Shown: piece by piece, positions 45,902-50,149 of the stretch
Position numbering within the stretch: position 1 is the stretch's first letter
Layout of the letters: every line of letters begins with the position of its first letter
Assembly: GCF_021890735.1 (NCBI RefSeq)
Contig: NZ_JAKKUR010000006.1
Span: 1-64,000 of the forward strand
Direction of reading: 5' to 3'
Origin: Thermanaeromonas sp.
GTDB taxonomy: Bacteria; Bacillota; DSM-521; Neomoorellales; Neomoorellaceae
DNA: 64,000 nt
The notes under the pieces: model-generated
Told to the model about the DNA's origin: nothing
Databases searched by the model: none
What the model saw: only the letters and a program-made list of their open reading frames with translations
Translations under genes and position numbers: made by a program

Positions 45902-45931
45902 AAAAAAACCCGGTCCAGCCGGACCGGGTTT
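45902..45931 (-). terminator. Rho-independent terminator after the M23 peptidase gene
   Basis: AAACCCGGTCC and GGACCGGGTTT form a perfect 11-bp stem with a 4-nt loop, and the minus-strand T-run continues for four more bases. It begins 19 nt after the stop codon and probably ends a transcript carrying scfA, scfB and the M23 gene. Confidence 0.93.
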
Positions 45932-45949: not shown

Positions 45950-47431
45950 CTAGCGCAGATAATTAAGCGGGTTCCGCGGTTCACCGCTTACCAGTACTTC
46001 AAAGTGGAGGTGAGGACCCGTAGCCCTCCCTGTGGCTCCAACGTAACCTATAACCTCTCTGCGGGACACCTGCTGCCCCACTTTCACGTTATAGCCCGAA
46101 AGGTGGGAGTAGCGGGTAGCCAAACCTCCCCCGTGGTCTACAATCACCGTGCGGCCGTAGCCACCGTCATAGCCTACATAAGTTACTCTGCCCGCTTCTG
46201 CCGCTCCTACCGGAGAGCCGTGGGGAGCCGCTATGTCTATCCCGGTATGAAATTCTCTGCCGCGGTACCCGAAGTTTGAAGTGATCTGCCCGTAAATGGG
46301 CCAGGCCAGCCGACCCGAACCTCCTCCACGGGAGGCCAGGGCGACCTGCACCCGTGTTCCCCTTTCTACGATGCGGGCTACCGGCTCTTTTATCACTTCA
46401 CTCTGTAAGGCTTCCTTGTGTACAACCTGGCCGTTTTCCGCTACCAGCCGGTAAATAACCTTCTTTTGCCCTTCTTCCCCTTCCTGTTTTACCCTCTCCT
46501 CTCCCCGCCATAGCGACGGATTGGACCGGGTTTCCGTAGTATAGGGGATGCTTTCTACTACCTCTTGACGGTAGGTCACCACTACACAGACTAGGGGTCT
46601 TGCGGTACGAACCTTGAGTATCTGGCCTATGTCCAGGCGTTCACCCTGGAGCTGGGGGTTATCAGCCCTCAATTGTTCAACCGTCAAGCCGTACTTTTGG
46701 GCGATACTCCACAGAGAATCCCCCGCTTCTACCGTGTAATCTTCCGTTCCTGTGCCCCCTAAGAGCTCGGATAAGGCCTGTTCGAAGGCCAGTACCTCCT
46801 CGGGCGTAGCCAACCTCTTGGCCAGGTCGATATGCTCTTTAAATTTTACCTCTTCTATCTCCACGCCTTCAGGGATATAGGCCTTTTTAACCTCTTCAAG
46901 TACCCTTTGAGCTGTTTCCTCATCCCTAACCAGGGTTACGGGCTTATCGTCCACCCTTATTTCGGTGGCCAAAACCCGGAAGGCCACCTTCTGGGCTAAA
47001 ATACGTTCCAGCTCTTCCCCGGTATTTATCTCATCCCGTTCCACCCTTACCGGGACATACTCTACCTGGCCTTCGATCTCTACCCCCTGGTAGCCAGAAG
47101 CCTCCAGAGCGCTCCTAACCCTCTCCAGGGCTTTCTCGGCTTCCTCCCGGGTAGCGACAATACCTACCCGTTCACCCGCCAGCATAACCGCCCAAGCATT
47201 GGGGGCCGTAAAGTGCCGCCAAAATCCTAAGGCCACAAGTATGCTAGCGATAACTAGCACAGCCTTAGGGTCTATACGCCAGCCGGGCCGCTGTCTCCGG
47301 ACGACCTTCCCTTTCAGTCGGCTAAAAGCACACTGAAGGATACGCCCTGTTTCCGAGAAAACCCCTGAACATGGAGCCAGTAAGCTTCTCCATAGAAAAG
47401 GCCTGTCCTTCTCTGGGTCGTGCGGTGGCAT
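45950..47431 (-). CDS. Membrane-anchored M23 peptidase with LysM and G5 domains
   Basis: 493 residues: a membrane segment (VLVIASILVALGFW, about 57-70), an intermediate helical region, a LysM repeat (YTVEAGDSLWSIAQKYGLTV, about 225-270), a G5 domain (about 280-360) and a C-terminal M23/LytM endopeptidase domain. Zinc ligands lie in GREFHTGIDIAAPHGSPVGA and the HxH of GPHLHFEVL, with TRYSHLSGYNVKVGQQV between. It is expected to cut peptide cross-links in peptidoglycan, as spore or vegetative envelope remodelling factor. It lies 54 nt after scfB. Confidence 0.92.
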   Translation of the reverse strand: MPPHDPEKDRPFLWRSLLAPCSGVFSETGRILQCAFSRLKGKVVRRQRPGWRIDPKAVLVIASILVALGFWRHFTAPNAWAVMLAGERVGIVATREEAEKALERVRSALEASGYQGVEIEGQVEYVPVRVERDEINTGEELERILAQKVAFRVLATEIRVDDKPVTLVRDEETAQRVLEEVKKAYIPEGVEIEEVKFKEHIDLAKRLATPEEVLAFEQALSELLGGTGTEDYTVEAGDSLWSIAQKYGLTVEQLRADNPQLQGERLDIGQILKVRTARPLVCVVVTYRQEVVESIPYTTETRSNPSLWRGEERVKQEGEEGQKKVIYRLVAENGQVVHKEALQSEVIKEPVARIVERGTRVQVALASRGGGSGRLAWPIYGQITSNFGYRGREFHTGIDIAAPHGSPVGAAEAGRVTYVGYDGGYGRTVIVDHGGGLATRYSHLSGYNVKVGQQVSRREVIGYVGATGRATGPHLHFEVLVSGEPRNPLNYLR

Positions 47432-47485: not shown

Positions 47486-48928
47486 TTATTCGACTTGGCA
47501 GGCTTTAGATCCTGCTTCCGGGAGAAAATTTATCCGGGATCTGGCCAGGACGTAAAGTGCTGCTTCCAAGCGGGCTTTTTGTACGGCACAGGCCACCGGA
47601 TCGGGCTCCCTTAGGGTTCCCGTAGAAGCCAAGGCCGCGGCATGGCAGCCACCACTACAGTAAAAGCGGGCCCAACAACGAAGACACCGGGGCTTATTGT
47701 AGACGTGGGCCTGGCGGAATTCTTCTTGAAGTTCCTTTCTGGTGACACCCGTTTCTACATGGCCCAGGCGAAAGTCTTCCTGACCTACCAACTGGTGGCA
47801 GGGATAAAGCTCACCTTCCGGGCTCACCGCCAGGTAGGAGACTCCTGCACCGCAACCGTGCAGCCTCTTAGCCAGGCAAGGTCCTCCGTTAAGCTCCAGA
47901 TTAAAGTGGAAAAACTCAAAAGCCCTGCCTTTAGACCGGGCCTCGAGGTAAAAGGAGGCCAGCCTGCGGTATTCTTCCCTTATGGTGTTTATATCTTCCA
48001 TGCGCAAGGCATAGGGGTATACGGGCGGTGCCACCACGGGCTCTAGGGAAATAAAACGGAAGCCTAGTTCTACGAGGTGCCTCACATCGTCGGTAAAGTC
48101 CAGGTTATCCCGGGTGTAGGTACCCCGCACCCAGTAGTCCTGGTAGCCCCGCCTTTCGAGAAAATACTTTATCCGGGGAAGCACCCTGTGATAACTTCCT
48201 TGCCCCCGGTTGGTCCGCCGGTAGCGGTCGTTTGTCTCCGGCCGGCCGTCAAGGCTTAAAATTACGCTTATGCCCTCGCTGTTTAAAAAGTCGCCTATCT
48301 CTTTATTTAAGGCCAGACCATTGGTGGTGAGGGTGAAGCGTATCTCTTTCCCTAAATCCCTAGCTTTAGAGCGGCCGTAAAAAACAAGCTCCCTTACCAC
48401 CGGAAAATTCAAAAGGGGTTCGCCCCCAAAAAAGTCTACTTCCACGCGCCTCCGCGGTCCCGAAGCGGTCAAGAGGAAATCTATAGCTGCCTTGCCGACA
48501 GAGAGGGGCATTAGATTTTTTTGGCCCCCGAAGGAACCACCTCCGGCAAAGCAATACAGACAGCGCATATTACAATCGTGGGATACGTGTAAGCACAATC
48601 CCTGGAGGAGGGCTTCCGGCGGGCGGTACCACCCTGCCGCTAAATCCCGGGTAAAAAGGCTGCCTTCTTCCTGGCAGCGGGCCAGTTCTTCTAGTACCTC
48701 GGCAACCCGCTCCTCTCCCCATCTTCCAGTTGCCTTAAGCGCTTCGGCGGAGGGGCTTAAATCTCGAGCGCCTTCCATTAGCTCGTTTAAAACCTCTTTA
48801 GCCACATCATCTAAAACGTGCAGGGCTCCACTGTTTACATCCAGAAGAAGGTGGAGCCCGTTACAGGTAAATAAATGAAGGTCCGCCTGCCAGTCGATAC
48901 CTTTAAGGTCTGGCAATTTGCGAGCCAT
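47486..48928 (-). CDS. scfB: Radical SAM maturase of the SCIFF peptide
   Basis: A 480-residue radical SAM enzyme. An N-terminal RiPP-recognition-like segment (HLFTCNGLHLLLDVNSGALH) precedes the CxxxCxxC cluster motif CNMRCLYC (about 117-124). The C-terminal SPASM region has cysteines in GGPCLAKRLHGCGAGVSYLA, LYPCHQLVG, YNKPRCLRCWARFYCSGGC and DPVACAVQ for auxiliary clusters. It matches the maturase that installs a thioether between Cys and Thr in SCIFF peptides. The precursor gene lies 40 nt upstream, confirming the assignment. Confidence 0.95.
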   Translation of the reverse strand: MARKLPDLKGIDWQADLHLFTCNGLHLLLDVNSGALHVLDDVAKEVLNELMEGARDLSPSAEALKATGRWGEERVAEVLEELARCQEEGSLFTRDLAAGWYRPPEALLQGLCLHVSHDCNMRCLYCFAGGGSFGGQKNLMPLSVGKAAIDFLLTASGPRRRVEVDFFGGEPLLNFPVVRELVFYGRSKARDLGKEIRFTLTTNGLALNKEIGDFLNSEGISVILSLDGRPETNDRYRRTNRGQGSYHRVLPRIKYFLERRGYQDYWVRGTYTRDNLDFTDDVRHLVELGFRFISLEPVVAPPVYPYALRMEDINTIREEYRRLASFYLEARSKGRAFEFFHFNLELNGGPCLAKRLHGCGAGVSYLAVSPEGELYPCHQLVGQEDFRLGHVETGVTRKELQEEFRQAHVYNKPRCLRCWARFYCSGGCHAAALASTGTLREPDPVACAVQKARLEAALYVLARSRINFLPEAGSKACQVE

Positions 48929-48968: not shown

Positions 48969-49112
48969 TTACCTGTTCTCCTTTTCACAGGGCTGGTTGC
49001 TCACGGTTATAGATGTCTTGCAGGCTGACTGGCAGGAGACGTGACAGTTACCACAACCACCCCGGGACCAGGTCTCTTGAAGCCGCGGCTTTGCCACCGT
49101 AAGGATGTGCAT
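48969..49112 (-). CDS. scfA: SCIFF ribosomally synthesised peptide precursor, five-cysteine variant
   Basis: A 47-residue peptide starting at ATG behind GAGGTGGGG. The core GGCGNCHVSCQSACKTSI continues TVSNQPCE. The usual SCIFF core has KTSCTVANQAC, so one of the six cysteines is isoleucine here (residue 35); C20, C23, C27, C31 and C42 remain. The Cys31/Thr36 pair, at the spacing reported for the thioether link in a related peptide, is kept. It lies 18 nt after rpsI and 40 nt before its maturase. Function of SCIFF is unknown. Confidence 0.92.
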   Translation of the reverse strand: MHILTVAKPRLQETWSRGGCGNCHVSCQSACKTSITVSNQPCEKENR

Positions 49113-49130
49113 CTTCCCCACCTCTTTTCT

Positions 49131-49523
49131 TTAGCGTTTCGAGAACTGGGGTGCCTTGCGGGCTTTCTTAAGACCGTACTTGCGCCGCTCCTTCATGCGG
49201 GGATCCCGCGTAAGGAAGCCGGCCTGCCTCAAGATGGGCCTAAAGGATTCGTCGGCCTGGAGCAGGGCCCGCGCTATGCCTAAGCGGACCGCACCCGCCT
49301 GACCGGTTATTCCCCCTCCTTCTACCTTAGCTAGGACGTCAAAGCGGTCCACGGTATTAGTGACTTCCAGGGGTTTACGTATCATGTCAGCCAGTATCTG
49401 CTGGCCGAAGTATTCGGCAGGCGGTTTATTGTTTATTAGGATACGGCCCTGGCCGGGTATGAGGCGCACCCGGGCCACCGCGGTTTTGCGCCGTCCGGTG
49501 CCGTAAAACTGGACCTGAGCCAA
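49131..49523 (-). CDS. rpsI: 30S ribosomal protein S9
   Basis: 130 residues, complete: [20 protein letters not shown] at the start, [20 protein letters not shown] in the middle and the conserved [17 protein letters not shown] tail that reaches the P-site tRNA. It follows rplM by 105 nt. Unusually it is followed within 18 nt by the SCIFF peptide gene. Confidence 0.97.
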
Positions 49524-50066: not shown

Positions 50067-50149
50067 CCTGTGTCCCTCCTTCCTTACCCCAGGCTCGAAA
50101 TGTTCTGCAGCTTAATTTTACGTAAAGGCGGGGGGCTAGTCAACTTAAT

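Follow-up and report, generated by a model that had tools for sequence, protein, structure and literature searches.

The window, that is, the whole 64,000-nucleotide stretch of Thermanaeromonas sp. DNA that was analysed, carries on its minus strand the genes rplM (ribosomal protein L13, 49629..50066; TIGR01066, 199.6 bits), rpsI (ribosomal protein S9, 49131..49523; NF001099, 190 bits), scfA (48969..49112) and scfB (47486..48928), in this order. The first two of these are ribosomal genes, and the last two encode a SCIFF precursor peptide of 47 aa and its radical SAM/SPASM maturase. Translation of the scfA frame (minus strand, 49112..48969) gives MHILTVAKPRLQETWSRGGCGNCHVSCQSACKTSITVSNQPCEKENR, which scores 71 bits against TIGR03973 (cut-off 50) and 69.5 bits against PF13165 (cut-off 27), both far above chance, and this is the only SCIFF copy in the genome. 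A Shine-Dalgarno-like sequence, AGAGGTGGGG (49116..49125, minus strand), was read within the 18 nt that separate the rpsI stop from the scfA ATG, supporting a start at 49112. Comparison of the precursor with the PDB returned ferredoxin-like chains at chance level (E 1.4).

The scfA product contains five cysteines, at positions 20, 23, 27, 31 and 42, and not the literal six of the family. As judged from the sequence and the column counts given below, an ATA codon (49008..49010, minus strand) places Ile35 where most SCIFFs have their fifth cysteine, in such a way that Cys31, Thr33, Ile35 and Thr36 of the window peptide correspond to Cys32, Thr34, Cys36 and Thr37 of CteA; columns are given below in CteA numbering. 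The preliminary description, which had presented the gene as a SCIFF precursor with one conserved cysteine replaced, is thus confirmed, its coordinates, length and sequence included. The five-cysteine core that it gave for the window is also correct, but not the family core that it set against it, ACKTSCTVANQAC, as the commonest core in our sample is ACKTSCTVGNQxC.

The scfB gene starts 40 nt downstream of scfA and encodes a full-length, intact protein of 480 aa (TIGR03974, 549.7 bits; cut-off 425), which aligned over almost its full length with CteB (PDB 5wgg/5why) in a phmmer search (467 bits). Its radical-SAM CxxxCxxC motif is formed by Cys119, Cys123 and Cys126, and its eight SPASM cysteines, towards the C-terminus, are found at positions 351, 359, 377, 415, 418, 424, 428 and 447, these eleven residues being conserved in 97-100% of 116 maturases. 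A co-occurrence of the altered precursor column with maturase residues, a check put forward in the preliminary description, was sought in two ways, the 116-maturase set included, and no residue covaried cleanly with the change from Cys to Ile or Leu across the variant clades; candidates near window residues 161, 162, 266 and 292 were discarded because they did not hold from one variant clade to another. In two Moorella genomes the space between scfA and scfB holds an extra 300-400 nt with inverted-repeat arms (L045:3409-3625 and L047:4069-4371), possibly a small mobile element.

A single isoleucine codon in a draft genome could come from a misread cysteine codon, or belong to a decaying gene whose peptide has fallen out of use. 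For this, the precursors of near relatives were read: 85 of 101 genomes carry SCIFF, and all 85 precursors were examined. Within the window's own family the column holds isoleucine in 17/17 genomes with SCIFF, among them single-contig assemblies and the named species Moorella thermoacetica, M. mulderi, M. stamsii and M. sulfitireducens. Three synonymous codons are used for it (ATT in 12, ATC in 3 and ATA in 2), which settles the concern that resequencing might return a cysteine codon at residue 35. The pairwise pN/pS of the core within the family is 0.03, indicating that the precursor is under strong purifying selection with the isoleucine in place, and the maturases are intact. The fragmentation of the window genome into 142 contigs is the sole point in favour of error or decay, and the family-wide conservation together with the low pN/pS leaves that explanation practically no room. 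The five-cysteine form found in the window is therefore genuine and conserved, within an already known peptide family. One genome of the same family (G004, 98% complete) yielded neither precursor nor maturase, an apparent loss of both. Our literature search found no paper dealing with both Moorella and SCIFF, and no chemical analysis of a peptide from the window's own bacterial family.

The distribution of the replacement was then considered at a larger scale. A motif search in 399 genomes of the phylum found cysteine at the column in 292 and another residue in 25, the latter, covered by a pattern that admits any second codon base except G, being all Ile or Leu and belonging to four families. 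A search of named genomes added Leu or Ile in Desulfovirgula, Desulfotomaculum and other lineages and Ala in two Clostridium bins, in a set that is enriched for variants, because the peptide patterns used had been derived from the alignment of variants. Since such searches hold a part of the motif constant, their counts are blind to variation within that part. Among 157 different precursors, column 36 holds Cys in 113, Ile in 23, Leu in 19 and Ala in 2, and among the cysteine columns it alone shows appreciable variation, since C21, C24, C28 and C43 are present in 157/157 and C32 in 156/157. The fifth cysteine is therefore absent from 44 of the 157, in such a way that a literal count of six does not define the family as drawn by the profiles, and scfA is filed as a variant within it. 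When mapped on a tree built from 116 maturases, this column requires seven changes under the best topology, and supported branches by themselves demand no fewer than four; several origins of the Ile/Leu forms are thus likely but not proven, an AU test with 85 maturases having failed to reject a single origin of them all (p 0.23). The suggestion that the six-cysteine definition is looser than its name holds, but not its restriction to this lineage, as Ile, Leu and Ala forms appear to have arisen several times. Among other observations, one genome (G300) has two places with the SCIFF motif (C18:8752-8780 and C189:44620-44648), and three SCIFF loci (L143, L202 and L169) come from bins that carry the labels Armatimonadetes, Deltaproteobacteria and Acholeplasmataceae, either by transfer or because the bins are mislabelled.

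Which threonine takes the cross-link bears on how the replacement can be tolerated. As reviewed, two in vitro studies placed the SCIFF thioether between Cys32 and Thr37, and a later co-expression study between Cys32 and Thr34 (PMC8326336, PMC8172795); the link to Thr34 is reviewed as formed via the gamma carbon, and so is the linkage of CteA (PMC8172795), a thioether to a beta or gamma carbon being the mark of ranthipeptides and one to the alpha carbon that of sactipeptides. The window peptide keeps both the donor, its fourth cysteine (Cys31), and the two candidate acceptors, Thr33 and Thr36. As had been proposed, the lost cysteine is accordingly not the donor, and modification can still occur. 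The Cys-x4-Thr spacing that had been cited for the link corresponds to the Cys32-Thr37 assignment of some of this work, which is disputed, and conservation points to the other threonine. Thr34 is present in 157/157 precursors and Thr37 in 154/157, the latter being replaced by Gly or Ser in the remaining three and by Gly in five further genomes read later. In all, Thr37 is lost to Gly in seven genomes (L010, L028 and L219-L223, reading CKTSCG) and to Ser in one (L032, around 1480-1640 of the minus strand, reading SKTSCS, with Ser also at the position of the donor cysteine), with an intact maturase beside each. By contrast, a search of 250 genomes for a changed Thr34, with Ser, Ala and Pro outside its reach, returned no genuine SCIFF lacking it; the apparent matches were unrelated proteins or, in one case, a chance open reading frame without a maturase. 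These data favour Cys32-Thr34 over Cys32-Thr37, as support and not as proof, because those Thr37-less genomes that could be located on the tree fall into a single clade, one of the examples has Ser at the donor position, and the maturase of that clade may act in another way. If the ring joins Cys32 and Thr34, residue 36 lies outside it, which would explain the freedom of this position to change.

On these grounds we consider it probable that the window encodes a working SCIFF (ranthipeptide) system with a precursor that has permanently lost its fifth cysteine, receives a Cys31-Thr33 link and is probably co-produced with ribosomal proteins. ScfB would most likely bind the leader of the precursor and join Cys31 to Thr33 by a thioether, and an aliphatic side chain at residue 35 would be tolerated outside the ring. 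The mature peptide would then retain four free thiols (positions 20, 23, 27 and 42) instead of five. A different reading gives Cys36 a share in a second bond of the six-cysteine SCIFFs, a thioether or a disulfide, with the Ile, Leu and Ala lineages making a different and simpler product that has another role. The retention of Cys36 in 292 genomes of the sample and in 113/157 precursors means that it matters in most lineages, and serine at column 39 is confined to the Ile/Leu lineages (25/44 against 0/113). However, the two characterised SCIFFs have one thioether only (PMC8326336), no maturase column tracks the replacement, and the association with Ser39, striking in its counts, was not significant on independent pairs, so that Ser39 was rejected as a partner of residue 36. 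We regard such a change of topology as rather unlikely.

The last element of the favoured reading, joint production with ribosomal proteins, comes from the gene order. The location of the gene directly behind rplM-rpsI and before its maturase, pointed out in the preliminary description, is conserved in 17/17 family members with SCIFF, with rpsI-scfA gaps of 14-124 nt, mostly 15-18 nt. No terminator-like site was seen in this gap in any of the 17 loci. In the Moorella family scfA comes third in the gene run that begins with rplM and rpsI, and its precursor is probably produced from the ribosomal transcript. A sigma-70-like match ahead of rplM (50115..50143, minus strand; TTGACT-17-TAAAAT, 10 of 12) is a possible transcript start on weak evidence, such matches being no commoner than in shuffles. 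Past scfB the next gene in the same direction encodes a LysM-G5-M23 peptidase (45950-47431, minus strand), followed by a strong terminator-like site (45906-45931) that may end the scfA-scfB transcript too.

A scan run against shuffled controls found a terminator-like hairpin just after the precursor stop in 13/17 family loci (L034, L036 and L038-L048), against 0.5 expected from shuffles, and in 37/81 other loci, against 2.2 expected. It would appear from this that many lineages produce more precursor than maturase. The hairpin is absent from the window and from both genomes of its genus. A supply of precursor tied to ribosome synthesis, as had been proposed, is plausible from the synteny and from the lack of a terminator behind rpsI, and applies to the window's family only. 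It could also be argued that a chance rearrangement placed the gene behind rpsI and simply stayed, with no role in supply and the peptide regulated elsewhere: rpsI does not adjoin the SCIFF genes of the other lineages examined, and the maturase follows at varying distances. Against this, the arrangement is kept in all 17 genomes with mostly very short gaps and no terminator between, and the hairpin, outside the window's genus, would allow the precursor to be carried on the ribosomal transcript, with attenuation of the maturase. We consider a mere accident of position unlikely on balance. Going further, the Moorella-family SCIFF might be a growth-linked signal, in which scfA closes the rplM-rpsI unit, the hairpin limits the maturase in most species, the amount of cross-linked four-thiol peptide reports ribosome production and the four remaining thiols act as one set; this is a speculative idea to which we attach little probability.

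SCIFF occurs in most Clostridia-like bacteria, but the structure of the mature peptide is contested and little is known of its role. The fifth cysteine has been lost in the whole Moorella family and, as seems likely, separately in several other lineages, which makes the label "six cysteines" unsafe as an annotation definition. Naturally occurring peptides without Cys36 or Thr37 that keep Thr34, and mostly Cys32, show what the maturase can do without; they speak for one of the two linkages in the literature and could serve as substrates for its direct test.

We compared the system with its closest known relatives. The precursors CteA of Clostridium thermocellum and Tte1186a of Caldanaerobacter subterraneus (TIGR03973/PF13165) share with scfA their length, the leader, the CxxCxxxCQSACKTSxTV core, the fourth cysteine, both candidate threonines and an adjacent maturase, whereas scfA differs in the isoleucine at the fifth cysteine, in an expected number of four free thiols instead of five and in its location behind rplM-rpsI. 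CteB (TIGR03974, PDB 5wgg/5why) and ScfB alike keep the radical-SAM CxxxCxxC and SPASM cysteines, and no residue was found between them that tracks the change from Cys to Ile. A more distant likeness exists with the ranthipeptide freyrasin (PapA/PapB), where a radical SAM/SPASM enzyme also makes non-alpha thioethers and ScfB matches the PapB profile below threshold (259.6 bits; cut-off 340), but freyrasin carries six Cys-x3-Asp links (PMC8172795), a motif that is absent from the scfA product.
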